From positions 1 to 64,000 of the forward strand of contig SUWD01000008.1 in NCBI GenBank assembly GCA_015061685.1: a stretch of 64,000 bases of DNA, given 5' to 3'. Of the stretch, positions 401-63,072 are shown one piece after another. Positions within the stretch are counted from its first letter, which is position 1; every line of letters starts with the position of its first letter. Origin of the DNA: Lentisphaerota bacterium (GTDB taxonomy: Bacteria > Verrucomicrobiota > Lentisphaeria > Victivallales > Victivallaceae). Both the position numbers and the translations under genes were made by a program. The notes beneath the pieces were generated by a model that was not told the origin of the DNA, searched no databases, and saw only the letters and a program-made list of their open reading frames with translations.

Positions 401-493
401 TCGGAACAATATTCGGAATAATATCAAAACAAATTGACATTGTTCCGCATTTTTACGGAATTATTCCGCATCTCTACTTGACATTGTTCCGCA
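401..493 (+). promoter_or_regulatory. Array of TTCCG-type operator repeats
   Basis: The 16-base string TTGACATTGTTCCGCA occurs twice (434-449 and 478-493), 44 bp apart. Related copies of TATTCCGCAT lie between them (about 461-471), and inverted copies (CGGAACAAT, CGGAATAAT, ACGGAATTA) lie at about 402-460. The second direct repeat contains the -35 box of the promoter for the next gene. Repeated, mixed-orientation motifs overlapping a promoter suggest an operator. The N-terminal HTH of the protein encoded downstream is the obvious candidate binder (inference). Confidence 0.6.
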
Positions 494-506
494 AGTGTGG
501 TATAAT
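478..506 (+). promoter_or_regulatory. Consensus sigma-70 promoter
   Basis: TTGACA at 478-483 and TATAAT at 501-506 with a 17-bp spacer match the consensus exactly. The start codon of the next gene lies 35 bp downstream of the -10 box, behind an AGGAGA ribosome site. Such a perfect promoter is usual for genes held down by a repressor, which fits the overlapping repeats. Confidence 0.85.
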
Positions 507-540
507 ATCTTTGTGAACAAAACTTTTCAGGAGATTTATT

Positions 541-2415
541 ATGGCGGATATGATGAAGGTTAAAGATGCGGCAACTCTTTGGGGATTGACTCCCCGTCGG
601 GTGTCTGAGCTGTGCAAGCAGGGGAAAATTGCCAATGCGCGCAAAGTCGGGAAAGCATGGATGATTCCTGCAAGCACTCCCAAACCGACCGATCAGCGTA
701 TTCGCAGCGGAGCTTATGCAAAAGTCGTTTTGCAAGAAAATCTGCCGCTTCCCATTGGCATTTCAGATTACCGTCTGGCTTCGACAGAATATTATTACAT
801 CGACAAAACTATGCTTATCAAGGATTTTCTTGATGAACGCCCGATGGTCTCTTTGTTCACCCGTCCCCGCCGTTTCGGAAAAACGCTCAATATGGATATG
901 CTTCGTACCTTTTTTGAAAAAAGCGATGAAGATACTTCTATCTATTTCAGAAACAAAAAAATTTGGACGTGCGGGAAGAAATACCGTGATTATCAGGGTA
1001 AATATCCGGTGATTTTTGTCTCTTTCAAGGATGTCAAATGCGAAACGTGGCAAGACACCTACGGGAACATTTACAAACTGTTGCAGAAAGAATTTGAACG
1101 CCATCTTGAATTACTGGAAAGTCCAGCACTCAACGAATATGACAAGCAGAAAATAAAAGATTTTCTCTCCGGTAAAGCGGACGAAAACGATTGTATGGCG
1201 GCATTTGCGACCCTTTCTGAAATGCTTGACAAACACTACGGTATTGCTCCAATTATCATTGTCGATGAATACGACACCCCTATCCAGCAGGGATATATGC
1301 GTGGTTTTTATGATTCCGTCATCCGCTTTATGCGTAATCTTTTCTCCGGAGGCTTAAAGGATAACAAACATCTTTCTTACGGTTTTCTGACCGGAATTTT
1401 GCGTGTGGCAAAGGAAAGTATTTTCAGCGGCTTGAACAACCCTAAAATCAATACGATCCTTGAAAACAAATACAGTCAGTATTTCGGATTCACGCCGGAT
1501 GAAGTCAAGGAAATGGCACGTTATTACAAGGCAGAAGATAAGTACGATGAAATTTGTGCCTGGTACGATGGATACCGCTTCGGCAAGTCGGAAATCTTCA
1601 ATCCGTGGTCAGTCATCAACTATTTCAGCAACGAGTGCGAACCCAGAGCTTTCTGGCAATCCACCGGCAACAATGAGATCATCGGCGAAGTTCTGACCAA
1701 TGCGGATGAGTCCATTTATGAAAAACTCAATCAATTGCTCCAGGGAAAATCCGTTTTGACTTACATCGACCCCAGTGTGATTTATCCGCAGATAAAGAAC
1801 AATCCGTCATCAGTTTACAGTTTTCTGTTGGTGGCGGGATATTTGAAAATCACCAAGGTTGAACCGTCATTTAATGGTGACTTTATGTGCGAAGTTGCCT
1901 TGCCCAATAAAGAAATTGCCTACGTTTACAACAAGGAGATCCTGCAAACGTTGACCGATATTATTCCGCAATCCACCGCAATCAGCATTCAGGAAGCGAT
2001 TTATTCCGGAAACAGCACCGCGTTGCAGAACCTGTTGCAAAAACTTCTGCTGGAATCGGTAAGCAATTTTGACACTGCTCATGAAAACTTCTATCACGGA
2101 TTGGTTCTGGGGTTGTGCGTAATTTTAGATAATCGTTACGAAATCACCTCCAACCGTGAATCCGGCACAGGCAGATACGATATTGCCTTGACACCGAAAA
2201 CCGGAAATCTGCCGGGTATCCTGATCGAATTGAAAGCAGCCAAAGACGCGTCCGCCGAACAGCTCAGTCAACTGGCACAGGACGCCTTGACCCAAATTGA
2301 AGAAAAGCAGTACGATACAACCATGAAAACCAGCAACATCTCCCCCATTTTCAAATACGGCGTTGCTTTTAGCGGAAAGAATGTGGAAATCTGCGTAGCA
2401 GAGGAGGGTAAATAA
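541..2415 (+). CDS. HTH + AAA-ATPase-like + PD-(D/E)XK nuclease fusion protein
   Basis: 624 residues. Residues about 5-45 form a MerR/excisionase-like helix-turn-helix (KVKDAATLWGLTPRRVSELC, then GKAWMIP). Residues about 70-330 match the AAA-ATPase-like family of DUF1703 proteins, with the nucleotide loop RPRRFGKT at 108-115 and a Walker B-like IIIVDEYDTP near 238-247. The C-terminal 90 residues carry a PD-(D/E)XK nuclease signature (G-GRYDIAL, then ILIELKA). The start is set by AGGAGA six bases upstream. Such proteins are common and often multicopy in gut anaerobes and their role is not settled. The HTH fusion plus the operator repeats upstream suggest autoregulation (inference). Its stop overlaps the next ATG (TAATG). 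Confidence 0.85.
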   Translation: MADMMKVKDAATLWGLTPRRVSELCKQGKIANARKVGKAWMIPASTPKPTDQRIRSGAYAKVVLQENLPLPIGISDYRLASTEYYYIDKTMLIKDFLDERPMVSLFTRPRRFGKTLNMDMLRTFFEKSDEDTSIYFRNKKIWTCGKKYRDYQGKYPVIFVSFKDVKCETWQDTYGNIYKLLQKEFERHLELLESPALNEYDKQKIKDFLSGKADENDCMAAFATLSEMLDKHYGIAPIIIVDEYDTPIQQGYMRGFYDSVIRFMRNLFSGGLKDNKHLSYGFLTGILRVAKESIFSGLNNPKINTILENKYSQYFGFTPDEVKEMARYYKAEDKYDEICAWYDGYRFGKSEIFNPWSVINYFSNECEPRAFWQSTGNNEIIGEVLTNADESIYEKLNQLLQGKSVLTYIDPSVIYPQIKNNPSSVYSFLLVAGYLKITKVEPSFNGDFMCEVALPNKEIAYVYNKEILQTLTDIIPQSTAISIQEAIYSGNSTALQNLLQKLLLESVSNFDTAHENFYHGLVLGLCVILDNRYEITSNRESGTGRYDIALTPKTGNLPGILIELKAAKDASAEQLSQLAQDALTQIEEKQYDTTMKTSNISPIFKYGVAFSGKNVEICVAEEGK

Positions 2416-2495: not shown

Positions 2496-2849
2496 ATGAC
2501 CCATTGCTACAATCTCTTTCAATCCAAAAACAAAAAGATTGATGAAGTTTTATGCATGGATAACAAGGAAATCCTTTGGCAAACATTGCAAGACTATCTC
2601 AAAGAATACGGATCGTTTATCAATAACACCACTGTTATTACAGGAATTTACATTTATCAGGTCAGTATCGAGCAGTACAATGCCATGACAGTAGTTGACA
2701 TAAAGCAGCAACTGGAAAGATTAAAACGCATCGTAATTGCAAAAGAAATTATGCATTCTGTGTACCAAAAATCTTTCAAAGAATGCCTTAAAAAGATTTT
2801 GCAAAAGACTAAACTGTTTCCAAAAGAAGCATTGGACATCATTTTCTGA
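2496..2849 (+). CDS. Hypothetical protein, probably N-terminally interrupted
   Basis: 117 residues from the first in-frame ATG after the interrupting TAA. There is no good ribosome site at this ATG, whereas the upstream start at 2415 has one, so the intact gene was probably 2415-2849 (about 144 residues). The protein is mostly helical and basic, with no motif I recognise. Its tight coupling to the HTH-ATPase-nuclease gene suggests they were expressed together. It may now be a pseudogene or be made at a low level by reinitiation. Confidence 0.5.
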   Translation: MTHCYNLFQSKNKKIDEVLCMDNKEILWQTLQDYLKEYGSFINNTTVITGIYIYQVSIEQYNAMTVVDIKQQLERLKRIVIAKEIMHSVYQKSFKECLKKILQKTKLFPKEALDIIF

Positions 2850-3610: not shown

Positions 3611-3922
3611 ATGAGGTGTGAACGCCCACTCCGGAATCTGCGGACAGGGAAAGAATTCACATCAAAAACATTCATCATTCCCCCGCCGCCCAAACGGAGC
3701 TTGTTTGAAGTGGCAGTCGAAGTCCTGCGACTTGCTAAAATGCCGATGAATACAAGGGAAATCATCGAGTGGGCGATCGAGTTGAAACTCTGGCAGCCGA
3801 CCGGCACAAAAACGCCCGAACAAACGCTTTACGGAGCAATCCACCGTGAGAACAAGACCAAAGAACAGCCACGCATTGTCAGAAGCGACCTCAAAGGCAA
3901 GTTCATATATGCCGGAGAATAA
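3611..3922 (+). CDS. HARE-HTH (winged helix) domain protein, small
   Basis: 103 residues. Residues about 30-100 match the HARE-HTH (HB1/ASXL/restriction endonuclease HTH) fold: SLFEVAVEVLRLAKMPMNTREIIEWA, then TPEQTLYGAIHREN and a final FIYA strand. This domain is usually fused to restriction enzymes or chromatin proteins and is thought to read modified DNA. Here it stands alone, so this may be the remnant of a larger gene. The first 25 residues look unlike a domain start and no ribosome site is visible, so the true start is uncertain. Confidence 0.6.
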   Translation: MRCERPLRNLRTGKEFTSKTFIIPPPPKRSLFEVAVEVLRLAKMPMNTREIIEWAIELKLWQPTGTKTPEQTLYGAIHRENKTKEQPRIVRSDLKGKFIYAGE

Positions 3923-3938
3923 TACTTAAAACATATGC

Positions 3939-4011
3939 ATTATGCTCCAGAGTAACATATAGCCAACTTGAAAAAAGTTGGTTTTATGCTATATTACGCT
4001 TGGAGCGTAAT
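3939..4011 (+). promoter_or_regulatory. Promoter with two palindromic operators before the zeta-toxin gene
   Basis: TTGAAA (3968-3973) and TATATT (3990-3995) are spaced by 16 bp. A perfect inverted repeat ATTACGCT-TGG-AGCGTAAT (3993-4011) overlaps the -10 box. A degenerate version, ATTATGCTCCAGAGTAAC (3939-3956), lies upstream of the -35 box. This arrangement is typical of autoregulated toxin-antitoxin operons. Confidence 0.65.
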
Positions 4012-4027
4012 GGAGGTATTACCGATT

Positions 4028-4618
4028 ATGAGTGCAAAGAAACAACCGATTTGTTATATCGTTGCCGGACCGAATGGTGCCGGTAAGACTACTTTTGCAC
4101 TTCAATATCTCCCCAAAATCGTATCGTGCAACAACTTTATTAATGCCGATGAGATTGCCAAAGGCGTGTCCCCGTTGAACTTTGAAGCCGGTTTGTTACA
4201 GGCAAGCAAGATTTTTTTGCAATCTCTGAACCGGAAAATTGAGAACAAAGGAACTTTTGCTTTTGAAACAACTCTTTCCGGGCGGTCATATTTGACGCAG
4301 ATCCCTAAATGGCAGCAAGATGGATGGAAAGTTGTCCTGATTTATCTCTATATCCCCAGTGCTGAATTTTCAGCGTTCCGGGTGCAACAGAGATTTGAAC
4401 AGGGTGGTCATAATGTTCCTGCGGATGCCATTATCCGCCGCTACCCCCGAAGTATCAAAAACTTGTTTTTGTACTCTGAAGTATGTGACCAAACCTTTTG
4501 TTTCAGCAATGAACAAGGTATGGTAGCTTCCGTGTTTGAAAGAACCAAAGGACAGCCTGTTGAAATCATCGATAAAGTAACTTACTCAAGAATCATGGAG
4601 GTAGTAAACCATGAGTGA
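4028..4618 (+). CDS. Zeta-toxin-like P-loop kinase
   Basis: 196 residues from the chosen ATG, which follows GGAGGT; an in-frame ATG at 3968 is also open but precedes the promoter's -10 box. The Walker A motif GPNGAGKT is at residues 14-21, followed by NADEIAKG and FETTLSGR, the pattern of zeta toxins and related nucleotide kinases. Zeta toxins phosphorylate UDP-N-acetylglucosamine and so block cell-wall synthesis; other members of this broad family act on different substrates. The next small gene overlaps it by 8 bp and may encode its partner. The substrate here is unknown. Confidence 0.8.
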   Translation: MSAKKQPICYIVAGPNGAGKTTFALQYLPKIVSCNNFINADEIAKGVSPLNFEAGLLQASKIFLQSLNRKIENKGTFAFETTLSGRSYLTQIPKWQQDGWKVVLIYLYIPSAEFSAFRVQQRFEQGGHNVPADAIIRRYPRSIKNLFLYSEVCDQTFCFSNEQGMVASVFERTKGQPVEIIDKVTYSRIMEVVNHE

Positions 4619-25142: not shown

Positions 25143-25165
25143 TAAAAACAGTGAGGATAATACTG

Positions 25166-28100
25166 ATGGCAACAAATAGTGCAAATAACTCATCACCTGC
25201 ACCAGTTGCGGGTGAAAAGAAAAAAGAGCTTTCCGCTTGGATCGTATTTGCCAAGCCGGAAATGTTTATGCTGACTCTTCCGGTTGACGGTTCTGTAATT
25301 CTGCCCGTATTGGAAAACGGAGATGCTTTACTTTTTGCCGACCGGGAAAATAAAGTTGCCACTGGCGTTCGCCGTTTGTACCTTATCCGCAATGAAGAGA
25401 AAAAAACAATCCTTTATTTCGATCGGATCGTTGACTTTGAATCGCCAATTCCCCTTGATGAGTTGCAATATACTATACCTGAAGCTCCTGCAGCCGTTTG
25501 GAAATTGGAAGTTCCCAAACTGGAACGTGCTCTTCAAATTGCCAAACATCCGGAATTTAAGGCGTTGCCGGAAATTAGTCCTTACGACAGAAATGCTCAA
25601 AACTATGTCCGTAACCTTTTGCAGCAAGCGGTTGTAGACGACCTTCTCGGTCCAGCACGTGGACCGGAAGAAGAAATCGTAGGAATGAGTGTCCGTGATC
25701 GATATCTGGTCGGCAAACTTGCTCCGAAAGTACCATACGATGACGGATCTTCAGACTCTCCCTTTACCGATGATGACTCAGATGAAGAACCTGCCGATTT
25801 GGTCAAGGTGGAAAATAAAGATCACAATGATCTCTCCAAATCCGCAGGCGGTGCAATTGATGAAGATGACGATGCTGCTATTGATACCAATAATAATCAA
25901 TCGCTTGTACCATCTTCACTTGGTTTTACTTTTTGTATTGATGCCAGCTTGCCGGATCTGGAGCTGACCGTTTCATGGGGGCGATATGAGCGTGCGGACA
26001 GTGAATTTGCTGTTAACCCCAAAAATGGCAATCCCGCCCGATGCTGGAAACGTATTCCTTCCGGTGGAACAACAGTTCTGAAGTTGCAGGAAGGGCGTAT
26101 TAAACCTTTTGTTATTGATAAAGAATCAGAACAAGTCTTCATTCAAGGTTCTGTCACCCGTGAGTTACCCAATCACTCTCGTCTGGTAACCCTCTTTCTG
26201 GTAAACGATCAAATCCGTCCCGATCAAAATCAGGATGCGGCGTGGATATTCCAACCGGAACTCCGGGTGAAATCCACGGAAGGTAAAGCAATATTTGTCC
26301 GGAAACCATTCCGGGATGTCAATGAGGTGGATGAAGAGCTCAAAGCCCTCAACATGATTTACCGTAAAAAGGTGGAATTCGCTGTCGGTCATGGAATTGC
26401 CGTTCATGCAATCCCATCTGTAGATGATTACGAAAAAGCAACAGAAATTCATACCGTAGTCATGCCAGAATATGAAATCCCGGTTACAGAAACTCCCGGT
26501 AGTGAACCGGAAGACCGTCCGGCAATGCAGCAGCTTTTCAAAGACGGCTTGTTAGATATGCGGCATTTGGCAGAACTGCCCAAAGATGAATTGCTGGCTG
26601 GACTCAATATTCTGACCGATGATTATGCCGAATGGATCAATGAACAACGTCATAAAGCAGAAACCGCAGAATTGCAATACTATGCAGATTCCGCACAATC
26701 TGCTATTGAACATTGTGAAGAAATTTTAGATCGGTTACGGGAAGGCTTGCAGGTAATTGCAGATAATCCCCTTGCTTTGGATGCTTTTCGTTTTGCAAAT
26801 CGGGCGATGGCTGATCAGCGTGTTCACTCCATATACGCATTGAGTAACCGCCGGAATGAAAATAAAAAACTTGTTGACTTTGATAAGCCGTCAAATCACT
26901 CCTGGCGACCATTCCAGTTGGCATTTATGCTTTTGTCCATTCCTTCACTGGTTGATCCTGCTCATATTGACAGAACCAATCCTCTGGCGGCACACGCTGA
27001 TCTTCTCTGGTTCCCAACTGGTGGTGGTAAAACAGAAGCATATCTTGGCGTAGCAGCCTTTGCAATGGGCATTCGCCGTTTACAAGGGGAACTGGGTGGC
27101 TTGGATGGTTCTCGCGGTTTATCAGTCATTATGAGATATACTCTCCGTTTGTTGACAATTCAGCAGTTCCAGCGTGCAACAGCTCTTATTTGTGCGATGG
27201 AAAGTATCCGCAGTAAAGAACCGAAAAAATGGGGCGAGACACCGTTCTCCATTGGGTTGTGGGTCGGTCAGAAAACAACACCCAACACGACCGAGGAAAG
27301 TCACAATGCGATTGAAAAAGAACGTGAACACCAGTATGGTATCAGTTCAACCCCAGCTCAGTTGACTACCTGTCCATGGTGTGGCGCTGAAATTCAGCCG
27401 GGACGGGAAATCGTTGTTGATCGGGAATGCGGACAAACGCATATCTATTGCGGAGATCCGCTTGGGCGCTGTGAATTCAGTCGTGCTAAAAATGAAATCG
27501 GTTTGCCGGTGGTAGTAGTAGATGATGAAATCTATCATCGTCCACCGACAATGCTGATCGCTACAGTTGATAAATTTGCGATGATGGCATGGAAAGGTGC
27601 TGTTAGAACCTTGTTTGGTAAAGTCAGCCAAGAGTGCCCCAGACACGGTCTTTTGTGGCCTGATGCAGATTGCAATGGAAACCACAAGAAAAAAGGAAAA
27701 TACGAGGCAACCGTAGTCAAAGCTGTAAAAGAAATCCGTCCGCCGGATTTGATTATCCAAGATGAGTTTCACCTGATTAGCGGTCCACTCGGAACAATGG
27801 TTGGACTGTATGAAACTGCCGTTGACGATCTTTGTTCATGGCAGTATGAAGGAAAAACAATCCGTCCTAAAATTGTTGCTTCAACTGCCACTGTACGAAA
27901 AGCTGAAAAACAGATCAATAATGTATTTTTGCGCAATGTTAGTATCTTTCCAGCTCACGGCATTGATGTTGAAGATAACTTCTTCTCAGTTCAGCGGTCA
28001 ATTGATAAACGATGCGGTCGCCGTTATCTTGGCATTTGCGCCCCTGGTGCATCTCGTCCAGCTGTTTTGATCCGGGTCTACGTCGCTCTACTTACCGGGG

Positions 28101-29131
28101 CACAGTCACTTTTCGAACATTTTGGCCTGTTAGCAGACCCATATATGACATTAGTAGGCTATTTCAATTCTCTGCGAGAACTCGGAGGTATGCGGCGTTT
28201 GGCAGAGGACGACGTTCAAACTCGAGCGTTCCGTGTCGCAATGGCTACTGAAGTTAAACGCCCCGGTCTGATTCAACGCAGAGTAAGAAATGTTGATGAA
28301 TTGACCTCGCGTGTCAGTAACAAAGAAATTCCCAAGAAATTAGATCAATTGGAAATTAAATTTAAAACAGCATGGGGACGGGATGAAACCAGAGCAATGG
28401 ATGTTATCCTTGCAACTAATATGCTTTCTGTGGGGGTTGATGTAAATCGCCTTGGTGTAATGGCTGTAAATGGTCAGCCCAAAAACACCGCAGAATACAT
28501 TCAGGCTACCAGCCGTGTTGGTCGCTCTTTTCCCGGATTGGTGTGTACCGTGTTGACATGGTCGCGTCCAAGAGATTTCTCTCATTATGAAACTTTTGAA
28601 CATTATCATGCTACTTTCTATAAACATGTGGAAGCTCAATCAGTTACCCCATTTGCATCCCGTGCGTTGGATCGTGGACTCACTGGCACAATGGTAAGTA
28701 TGATTCGTTTGGGTGCAGAAAACTTCAGTCCCAATCTCGGAGCTTCAGAGTTAAAAGATTCCGGGGACCAAACTGTCCAAACAGTCAAAAACCATGTGGC
28801 AAACAGAGCTTGGAATGTTGATGGTAATTCCGGGACAAAAGATCTTACAGATGATATGGCGGCAGTCCGTATTGACCGTTGGGTAAAAGAAGCTAAAGTT
28901 CCCGGTCGACAGTTAGGGTATGAAAAAGCCAACAGGCAGGGAGATGTTATAAATCTGCTTAAAAAACCGGGTATTTCTGCATGGGATGAATTTACTGTCC
29001 CTATGTCAATGCGCGAAGTCGAACCGGGAATACGGCTGATTATGGATAAAACAACCCGTACTGATGATGAACCGGAATGGCAAATGCAAGTATTAAAGGA
29101 TGAAAATAATCAGAACGGAGGTGAACAATGA
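25166..29131 (+). CDS. drmA: DISARM helicase DrmA
   Basis: 1321 residues from the ATG behind GAGGATAA (an earlier in-frame ATG at 25151 lacks a ribosome site). It is a superfamily 2 helicase: Walker A FPTGGGKTE near residue 615, DEFH box (LIIQDEFHLISGPLG) near 864, ASTATVRK, and the C-terminal lobe signature ATNMLSVGVDVNRLG with QATSRVGR. An acidic linker (DDDSDEEPAD and EDDDAAIDTNNN) lies near 195-240, and CPWC plus later cysteines suggest a zinc site inside the helicase. DrmA works with DrmB as the DNA-binding core of DISARM. The stop overlaps the drmB start. Confidence 0.93.
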   Translation: MATNSANNSSPAPVAGEKKKELSAWIVFAKPEMFMLTLPVDGSVILPVLENGDALLFADRENKVATGVRRLYLIRNEEKKTILYFDRIVDFESPIPLDELQYTIPEAPAAVWKLEVPKLERALQIAKHPEFKALPEISPYDRNAQNYVRNLLQQAVVDDLLGPARGPEEEIVGMSVRDRYLVGKLAPKVPYDDGSSDSPFTDDDSDEEPADLVKVENKDHNDLSKSAGGAIDEDDDAAIDTNNNQSLVPSSLGFTFCIDASLPDLELTVSWGRYERADSEFAVNPKNGNPARCWKRIPSGGTTVLKLQEGRIKPFVIDKESEQVFIQGSVTRELPNHSRLVTLFLVNDQIRPDQNQDAAWIFQPELRVKSTEGKAIFVRKPFRDVNEVDEELKALNMIYRKKVEFAVGHGIAVHAIPSVDDYEKATEIHTVVMPEYEIPVTETPGSEPEDRPAMQQLFKDGLLDMRHLAELPKDELLAGLNILTDDYAEWINEQRHKAETAELQYYADSAQSAIEHCEEILDRLREGLQVIADNPLALDAFRFANRAMADQRVHSIYALSNRRNENKKLVDFDKPSNHSWRPFQLAFMLLSIPSLVDPAHIDRTNPLAAHADLLWFPTGGGKTEAYLGVAAFAMGIRRLQGELGGLDGSRGLSVIMRYTLRLLTIQQFQRATALICAMESIRSKEPKKWGETPFSIGLWVGQKTTPNTTEESHNAIEKEREHQYGISSTPAQLTTCPWCGAEIQPGREIVVDRECGQTHIYCGDPLGRCEFSRAKNEIGLPVVVVDDEIYHRPPTMLIATVDKFAMMAWKGAVRTLFGKVSQECPRHGLLWPDADCNGNHKKKGKYEATVVKAVKEIRPPDLIIQDEFHLISGPLGTMVGLYETAVDDLCSWQYEGKTIRPKIVASTATVRKAEKQINNVFLRNVSIFPAHGIDVEDNFFSVQRSIDKRCGRRYLGICAPGASRPAVLIRVYVALLTGAQSLFEHFGLLADPYMTLVGYFNSLRELGGMRRLAEDDVQTRAFRVAMATEVKRPGLIQRRVRNVDELTSRVSNKEIPKKLDQLEIKFKTAWGRDETRAMDVILATNMLSVGVDVNRLGVMAVNGQPKNTAEYIQATSRVGRSFPGLVCTVLTWSRPRDFSHYETFEHYHATFYKHVEAQSVTPFASRALDRGLTGTMVSMIRLGAENFSPNLGASELKDSGDQTVQTVKNHVANRAWNVDGNSGTKDLTDDMAAVRIDRWVKEAKVPGRQLGYEKANRQGDVINLLKKPGISAWDEFTVPMSMREVEPGIRLIMDKTTRTDDEPEWQMQVLKDENNQNGGEQ

Positions 29132-39507: not shown

Positions 39508-39868
39508 TGGTGGAGGTGAGGGGAGTTGAACCCCTGTCCCAACGAGGAATGATGAAGACATCTACATGCTTGTTCCATCTTCAATTGTTTTTCGTCCTCC
39601 GTTCCGCCAATGGACAGGCGGTCCTTCAGAACAGGCATTCTGAAATCTCGCAGAAGTTCCGAATGCCGGGAATCTCTGCCAGGGCGCTGGATGACGCCGC
39701 TTACACCTTAGCACCCGGTCAGGCGCAGCGACGTGGCGGGAAAATTATGCCGCCAGAGCAAACTCTTCGTTCGCATTTATTGTTTTAACCGGTGATTAAC
39801 GAGGCCAACGGTCATCCTCGGCATGCAATCAACCCAGTACCTTCGCCGGTCGAATCCGGAACACCCCC
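39508..39868 (-). ncRNA. ssrA: Transfer-messenger RNA (tmRNA)
   Basis: The 5' end GGGGGTGTTCCGGATTCGAC and 3' end GGGGTTCAACTCCCC-TCACCTCCACCA form the tRNA-like acceptor (7 bp with one G-U) and T arm, with CCA encoded. The tag frame lies at 39745-39774: GCG as likely resume codon, then codons giving ANEEFALAA and TAA. The RNA rescues stalled ribosomes together with SmpB, whose gene lies 1.9 kb away. The length (361 nt) is normal for a one-piece tmRNA. Its 3' end faces the defence island, a classic site for island integration. Confidence 0.97.
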
Positions 39869-61626: not shown

Positions 61627-63072
61627 TTATCTCCGGATTACCCGGCAACCATCCGGGAAGGCATATTTTCCGACAGTACAGTTTTGAGGAATCGAAACAT
61701 CGGGCAGTTTGTAACACCATCTGAATGCCGATTCTCCGATGGCGGTAACGCTGTTCGGGATCGCCACACTGGTCAATTTGTTGCACCCCTCAAATGCCGA
61801 TTCTCCGATGGCGGTAACGCTGTTTGGAATCGAAACAGTAGTCAACATGATACAGTGTTGAAAAGCATTTTTTTCAATGGAAGTAACGCTGTTCGGGATA
61901 GAAACGCTGATTAGAGAAGCACATCCGGAAAAAGCTCCTTCTCCAATGGATTTTACACTGCCCGGGATTGTCAGAGATAGCAATTTGTTGCACCCTGCGA
62001 ATGCTCCTTTTGCAATAGAGGTTATTGAATTGGAAATCGTTGCAGTGTGCAGATATCTGCAACCAATAAATGCCGATCTCCCAATGGAAGTAACGCTGTT
62101 CGGGATGGTAATACTATTCAATCCACACCACCCGAATGCGAAAGCACCGATGGTGGTAACACTGTTCGGAATTTCTATGCCTGTTAAGTAGGGACAGGAA
62201 ATAAACGCTGATTCTCCGATGGTAATGATTCCCTGGGGGATGGCATATTTTCCGCTGAAAGCAGGTGGCAAATAAAGCAGTGTTTTATTTTTATTGTCCA
62301 ACAAAGCTCCGGCTGAATCAATTGTAAAAGCAGGGTGATTCCGGGCAATTTGAACTTTTTTTACTCCGGAAAATGCCCCGTTCCCGACAGAGGTTACATT
62401 GCCGGGGATTGTGATGCTGGAAATGTTGTGGCATCCTGAAAAAGCATTTTTTTCGATGGAAGTAACGCAGGAGGGAATAACGACCGAAGTGACATTTACC
62501 GGGCACTTGATCAGAGTTTTATTATCTTCACTGAAAGTTATCCCTTGAGCTTTGGCAGCCGCCAATTCCTGCTCCCATTTTTCGACAATTGCATTTTCCG
62601 TGGCGGTGCTTTCAGCGGCGGCACTTTCAGCGGCGGCACTTTCAGCGGCAGAATTGCTCTTTCCAGAAGACAGGGCGTAAATGATATATATAGCATTGGG
62701 GATCCACAGTATGAGCAATACTATTCCGCCAATGATAAAAGCCTTTTTCATCCGTTGTTTGAAAGACGGTTGCTGTGTTCCTGCCGGATTGTTGAAAACT
62801 CCTTGCATCTGCGGCGGCGGTGGAAATCCGGGTCTGAATCCGCCCGGAGGGGGCATTGGTGGAACCCCAGGCTTGAATCCGCCCGGAGGGGGCATCGGCG
62901 GCGGAGTCATTTGGGGCATTTGTGGTGGCATCGGCGGCGGTGCGGGAGTCTCTTCCTCTCCGATGATCAGGATCTGCTGACACAACGGGCACTGCACTTC
63001 TCTGCCGATAAGTTCTTCACTGATGCTCAACTGCCCCTGACAAAAAGGACACTGGATGATTTGGTCTGCCAT
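61627..63072 (-). CDS. BspA-type leucine-rich repeat protein with zinc ribbon and TM helix
   Basis: 481 residues from the ATG behind GGGGG (a longer frame to 63159 lacks a ribosome site). Order: N-terminal zinc ribbon (CPFC 8-11, CPLC 28-31); a Pro/Gly/Met-rich linker with PPPGGF repeats; a transmembrane helix (IIGGIVLLILWIPNAIYIIYAL); a short AAES repeat; then about ten LRR_5 units (TSIEKNAF, SVTSIGRSAF, SVTAIGESAF) running to the end. The cytoplasmic zinc ribbon and external LRR suggest a membrane-anchored surface protein. BspA-like LRRs bind host or community ligands in other bacteria. It is divergent from a Ser/Thr kinase gene. Confidence 0.85.
   Translation of the reverse strand: MADQIIQCPFCQGQLSISEELIGREVQCPLCQQILIIGEEETPAPPPMPPQMPQMTPPPMPPPGGFKPGVPPMPPPGGFRPGFPPPPQMQGVFNNPAGTQQPSFKQRMKKAFIIGGIVLLILWIPNAIYIIYALSSGKSNSAAESAAAESAAAESTATENAIVEKWEQELAAAKAQGITFSEDNKTLIKCPVNVTSVVIPSCVTSIEKNAFSGCHNISSITIPGNVTSVGNGAFSGVKKVQIARNHPAFTIDSAGALLDNKNKTLLYLPPAFSGKYAIPQGIITIGESAFISCPYLTGIEIPNSVTTIGAFAFGWCGLNSITIPNSVTSIGRSAFIGCRYLHTATISNSITSIAKGAFAGCNKLLSLTIPGSVKSIGEGAFSGCASLISVSIPNSVTSIEKNAFQHCIMLTTVSIPNSVTAIGESAFEGCNKLTSVAIPNSVTAIGESAFRWCYKLPDVSIPQNCTVGKYAFPDGCRVIRR

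Follow-up and report, generated by a model that had tools for sequence, protein, structure and literature searches.

A conserved repeat operator, probably autoregulatory, upstream of a helix-turn-helix-bearing DUF1703 ATPase-nuclease gene in a Lentisphaerota bacterium

Analysis of a 64,000-nt stretch of DNA from a Lentisphaerota bacterium (GCA_015061685.1; contig SUWD01000008.1, positions 1-64,000; hereafter the window) showed a cluster of repeats running into a consensus promoter ahead of a gene for a 624-aa protein with a winged helix-turn-helix (HTH), an ATPase and a nuclease domain. We consider it quite likely that these repeats are the autoregulatory operator of this HTH-bearing DUF1703 protein, which would read them via its own HTH and repress its own gene. 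Autoregulation is well supported by sequence comparison, and repression is probable. The original prediction had been one of self-repression; self-regulation through the protein's own HTH held up in the comparative test described below, while we infer the repressing part from the layout of the promoter.

Layout of the repeats and promoter

As predicted, the 16-mer TTGACATTGTTCCGCA occurs in two identical copies, at 434-449 and 478-493. Six TTCCG/CGGAA words start at 402, 414, 443, 456, 464 and 487; they are direct and inverted, as had been claimed, but instead of surrounding the promoter they sit upstream of it and within it. When relatives were taken into account, the repeat unit was recast as a 14-bp half-site, TTGAYATTRTTCCG, used in both inverted and direct orientation across a core operator spanning 402-491. 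In a half-site scan allowing up to 4 mismatches, two minus-strand matches (from 402 and 414) and three plus-strand matches (from 434, 455 and 478) were obtained, with zero mismatches in the copies at 414, 434 and 478. An inverted pair (414-427/434-447) with a 6-bp spacer is followed by direct copies, and a sixth, weak match that overlaps the -10 region was left out of the following list of parts.

402-415, minus strand: outer half-site, CGAATATTGTTCCG on the minus strand, 3 mismatches to TTGAYATTRTTCCG
414-427, minus strand: half-site, left arm of the conserved inverted repeat, TTGATATTATTCCG, 0 mismatches; position conserved in relatives
434-447, plus strand: half-site, right arm of the inverted repeat, within the first 16-mer copy
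455-468, plus strand: weak direct half-site, ACGGAATTATTCCG, 4 mismatches, 21 bp after the preceding half-site
456-468: short palindrome CGGAATTATTCCG inside the weak direct half-site
478-491, plus strand: last half-site, within the second 16-mer copy; its first six bases are the -35 box
478-506, plus strand: consensus promoter TTGACA-N17-TATAAT with TG before the -10 box, 12 of 12 consensus positions
529-533, plus strand: likely ribosome-binding site AGGAG, read from the sequence
541-2415, plus strand: gene for the 624-aa protein (winged HTH, STAND-like AAA ATPase, PD-(D/E)XK nuclease)
2496-2849, plus strand: 117-aa ORF between the nuclease and macro-domain genes, no Pfam match; a related ORF follows the gene in locus L023
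2874-3383, plus strand: macro-domain gene

The perfect promoter of the original prediction was confirmed at every consensus position (TTGACA at 478-483, 17 nt, TATAAT at 501-506). When both strands of the 64 kb were searched for TTGACA/TATAAT at spacings of 16-18, it was the single perfect copy, and most homologues also have near-consensus promoters. Among 5000 dinucleotide shuffles of 341-540, none held a duplicated 16-mer within 76 bp and none held six TTCCG/CGGAA words (shuffle mean 0.42). The 16-mer with up to 3 mismatches matched 5 times in the window, compared with 0.96 expected. The arrangement of repeats and promoter at 402-506 is not a product of chance.

The operator in homologues and in other genomes

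Close homologues of the protein occur in Victivallales (96, 80, 70 and 70% identity) and Clostridia (mostly 64-68%). Of 63 loci, 17 entered the HTH-bearing group and 25 the HTH-less group; 18 that were partial or distant were left unscored, and three were dropped because their upstream sequence was the same as that of another locus (L044, as L043) or was missing or short (L023 and L035). A further homologue set contributed 7 of its 9 matches. Four homologues (L168-L171, from three phage records and one plasmid) were obtained after the consensus had been set and are described below. Upstream of 28 HTH-bearing homologues we observed 106 half-sites against 20.3 expected, and upstream of 25 HTH-less homologues 17 against 13.0, most counts coming from the same loci from which the half-site consensus was derived. 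A half-site on the promoter -35 with another 19-23 bp upstream was found in 23 of the 28 HTH-bearing homologues and 0 of the 25 HTH-less ones (shuffle expectation 0.000 and 0.005, respectively), the first bases of the consensus themselves resembling a -35 box. Removal of three near-duplicates left the layout in 20 of 25 HTH-bearing homologues. It is present in both Victivallales and Clostridia, distantly related gut bacteria, and the misfits were L033, L038, L144, L147 and L149, of which L149 (47% identical) has a different operator layout, with five direct CGGAA words at short spacing upstream of the gene. An alignment of 18 sequences anchored on the -35 box had 42 of its 110 columns above the 99th percentile of a shifted control.

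The comparative check thus agreed with the prediction, in that close HTH-bearing homologues have the repeats upstream and HTH-less ones do not; among the latter is L041, which is 65% identical and lacks both HTH and operator. L041 is the single close control; since most other HTH-less controls are just 33-42% identical, some of the contrast could be due to divergence alone. Scoring each upstream region by its best generic inverted repeat failed to tell HTH-bearing from HTH-less homologues, because terminator-like repeats score equally well, and this score was replaced by the half-site scan.

Diverged homologues have other half-sites at the same place and keep the layout. L145 has a perfect inverted repeat with 20-bp arms around TTGATTTCCTTCCG, L148 and L154 have TGCCG forms of the half-site, TTTCGC is common to L144 and L157, and CTTCCCA is common to L147 and L162. 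Near-consensus promoters were present in all four of the later homologues: L168 (63% identity) has, on its own -35 box, the canonical direct pair at a distance of 21 bp; L170 and L171 have variants, an inverted repeat around its own -35 box and repeated TGCCG half-sites, respectively; and L169 has a weak inverted partner only. A rule joining the helix ERT with TGCCG, drawn from L148 and L154, was broken by L169. In a covariation test using 31 of 32 sequences (L148 left out), the recognition helix correlated with the half-site when overall protein divergence was allowed for (partial Mantel r 0.19, p 0.03), as did the rest of the protein with the operator (partial r 0.24, p 0.009); the 5' untranslated region showed no partial correlation in the same test. 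The sequences thus suggest helix-operator covariation beyond overall divergence that is just modest and not decisive.

Within the 2.94-Mb genome, the exact inverted repeat with its spacing occurs once, and all eight further matches to the 16-mer with up to 2 mismatches lie inside reading frames. The suggestion that the same repeats would precede other such genes in this genome was not borne out: neither of the two other PF09820 genes has the repeats, because neither has the HTH. The strict repeat was found in nine of 387 genomes of the phylum and a reversed control in none. Four of the nine matches precede full genes, one lies where the contig ends in the gene, one precedes a truncated gene and three are geneless. 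A looser pattern lies upstream of the homologue in 16 of 21 homologue-bearing genomes. In 392 genomes from the order of G141, one of four strict-repeat matches precedes a homologue; since the reversed control was also found in 4 genomes of this order, the three others are at background level. In viral contigs, the strict repeat had no match and a protein search gave two pattern matches but no relative, while relatives are present in phage records. No neighbouring gene family is common to more than 3 of 23 loci. The protein itself is therefore the best candidate reader of the operator, and the gene with its operator acts like a single unit that can be transferred.

At this contig end, the gene is part of a variable island that also holds a DISARM-like cluster and stops at ssrA. 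The cluster (window 9760-30972) comprises a DrmMII-type methylase, a DrmD/SNF2 helicase, a PglX-like methylase, a DUF4209 protein (PDC-S39) and a HATPase protein, with DrmA at 25151-29131. The tmRNA gene ssrA, where the island ends, is at 39508-39868 on the minus strand. Genes for a HARE-HTH protein (3611-3922) and a zeta-toxin-like protein (3968-4618) adjoin the macro-domain gene, and 69-bp tandem-like repeats lie in register at 61688-62107. In the 96% relative (L022), the macro-domain gene starts 8 bp past the nuclease stop.

Operators also occur without the full gene. In five Victivallales genomes (G081, G082, G085, G106 and G127) the operator directly precedes the macro gene, which is interrupted in G085 and G106; these loci (L113:790-1459 of G081, L123, L124, L125 and L129) have a common junction and a possible TTGATT-N17-TATTTT promoter. 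In G081, which belongs to another genus, pieces of the same island adjoin ssrA. Gene fragments remain in G080 and G094, and operator DNA alone in G095 and G097; the solo operator of G097 (L115:434-491) is identical over 58 bp to window 412-469 and has unrelated genes on either side. At E <=1e-60, no nuclease homologue was detected in these nine genomes. We read such operators as remnants of gene loss, although their persistence in homologue-negative genomes counts against autoregulation by this protein.

The ATPase-nuclease and its relation to described systems

The predicted HTH-ATPase-nuclease makeup was borne out by profile matches. The winged HTH (residues about 1-50) matched HTH_17 at 28.4 bits against a cut-off of 27, AAA-ATPase_like (PF09820; residues 71-295) scored 136.2 bits against a Pfam cut-off of 26.1, and PDDEXK_9 (PF08011; residues 514-618) 66.9 bits against 25.5. 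In a 35-sequence alignment, R108, P109, R111, F112, G113, K114 and T115 of the Walker A variant RPRRFGK are invariant and R110 nearly so, as defined together with Walker B DEYD in PMC1913061; the DEYD at 242-245 is invariant, as are D547, E563 and Q585 of the nuclease motif, with K565 nearly invariant. No match was detected in a sequence search against solved structures. The predicted model of the protein has a mean pLDDT of 83, and its residues from about 68 to 465 match the STAND folds 2qen (Z 15.7) and 2fna (Z 14.6) over about 300 residues at rmsd 4.3-4.5, a similarity of fold only. The same region matched RPP1 and CED-4 at Z 12.9 and Avs3 at Z 9.7. In the predicted model, the ATPase part has a STAND-type fold across the nucleotide-binding and the following helical/winged domains, and the C-terminal part matches the nucleases of Wolbachia CinB/CidB at the domain level, with a Z of about 9. 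The HTH modelled alone (59 residues, pLDDT 74.5) aligned best with Xis 2ief (Z 6.2, rmsd 3.0), an entry whose title names a cooperative Xis filament, and with BldC 6ama (Z 6.2, rmsd 1.6), a modest score. Membership of either family is not claimed.

The protein resembles described DUF1703 proteins, whose AAA+ and nuclease domains were defined in PMC1913061 and which have expanded in Cardinium (PMC6387759), in having the same two domains, the RPRRFGK(S/T) Walker A variant, the DEYD Walker B and the nuclease motif residues. It differs from them in its N-terminal winged HTH and conserved operator. The term helix-turn-helix is absent from both PMC1913061 and PMC6387759; in the open-licence literature, DUF1703 was not found together with helix-turn-helix, and searches on DUF1703 and STAND/autoregulation found no description of such an operator. 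PF09820 is listed under RADAR RdrA, PARIS 1 and Old-tin (PMC10952713). PADLOC-DB 2.0.0 profiles of catalogued anti-phage systems matched the 624-aa protein in 0 families at E <=0.001. On the predicted model, the fold is like that of STAND ATPases (2qen, 2fna, NLR/CED-4 and Avs3); unlike NLRs and Avs, the protein is without a large repeat sensor domain, and the HTH takes the N-terminal place.

Cooperative binding to direct repeats is described for BldC, whose protomers occupy 9-bp direct repeats (PMC5859096). The operator described here lacks the head-to-tail direct repeats of about 9-10 bp expected of BldC/Xis; instead, its 14-bp half-sites are spaced 20-23 bp and include an inverted pair, and the HTH belongs to an ATPase-nuclease of 624 aa. 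In the RptR case, repeats in a defence-gene promoter overlap a promoter element and the operon represses itself, RptR being a separate protein of 9 kDa (PMC12255303). As in RptR-type repressors and autoregulated antitoxins, the present repeats overlap a promoter element, and self-repression is proposed. In contrast to RptR, a single polypeptide would serve as both repressor and effector, and its gene lacks a conserved partner such as type II toxin-antitoxin systems have, no family being found in more than 3 of the 23 loci.

Alternative readings and a possible mechanism

Sites that lie upstream of or overlap the -35 region also serve activators, and MalT is an activator among STAND proteins. 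The protein might thus bind the same sites and switch its own promoter on in positive feedback. We regard this as unlikely: the promoter needs no help, matching 12 of 12 consensus positions with a TG extension and being near-consensus in most homologues, and both the -35 box and the first part of the spacer fall within the last half-site. Repression is preferred over activation because the -35 box of a near-consensus promoter lies inside a half-site.

Repeats of this kind are bound by several small HTH regulators, and operators persist in seven homologue-negative genomes (G081, G082, G085, G095, G097, G106 and G127), as might be expected if the reader were a separate host or mobile-element regulator, e.g., an Xis- or MerR-like protein. 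Such a reader is improbable, since the operator moves between phyla together with the gene, is missing in front of HTH-less homologues and is single-copy in the genome, and no neighbour is conserved across the 23 loci. Inverted arms with a 6-bp centre also look like recombinase sites, and the geneless copies in several Victivallales loci (with the 58 identical bp in G097) and the variable island adjoining ssrA would suit the end of a mobile cassette or a nuclease target. We considered a cassette or transposon reading and set it aside as highly improbable: the repeats are on the -35 box in tight phasing, have one genome copy and belong to no repeat family of at least 35 bp in the window, and the geneless copies vary in extent, with gene fragments in G080 and G094, as decay predicts.

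Under autoregulation by repression, the HTH would hold several copies of the protein on the TTGAYATTRTTCCG half-sites, phased at about two turns of the helix (20-23 bp). With the -35 box of a very strong promoter inside the last half-site, occupation by the protein would shut out RNA polymerase and keep the nuclease scarce. From the sequences, we infer that the protein binds the sites, that binding represses and that cooperative oligomers take part. More speculatively, a trigger could move the ATPase from its operator-bound state into an active nuclease assembly, derepressing its own gene.

A fuller reading, in which one polypeptide would be sensor, repressor and effector, is offered tentatively and is on the whole doubtful. 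In a resting nucleotide state, the STAND-nuclease would sit on its own operator via the winged HTH, with the promoter silent; upon a trigger, ATP-driven assembly would remove the protein from the operator, turn the nuclease on and set off a burst of new synthesis of the protein. The operator and the HTH would have diversified together as a self-contained unit moving between phyla. DUF1703 proteins are widespread, and a conserved, readable operator is the family's first testable handle. If this switch model is true, the protein would join regulator and effector in one chain, as an immune-like ATPase able to read the promoter of its own gene.
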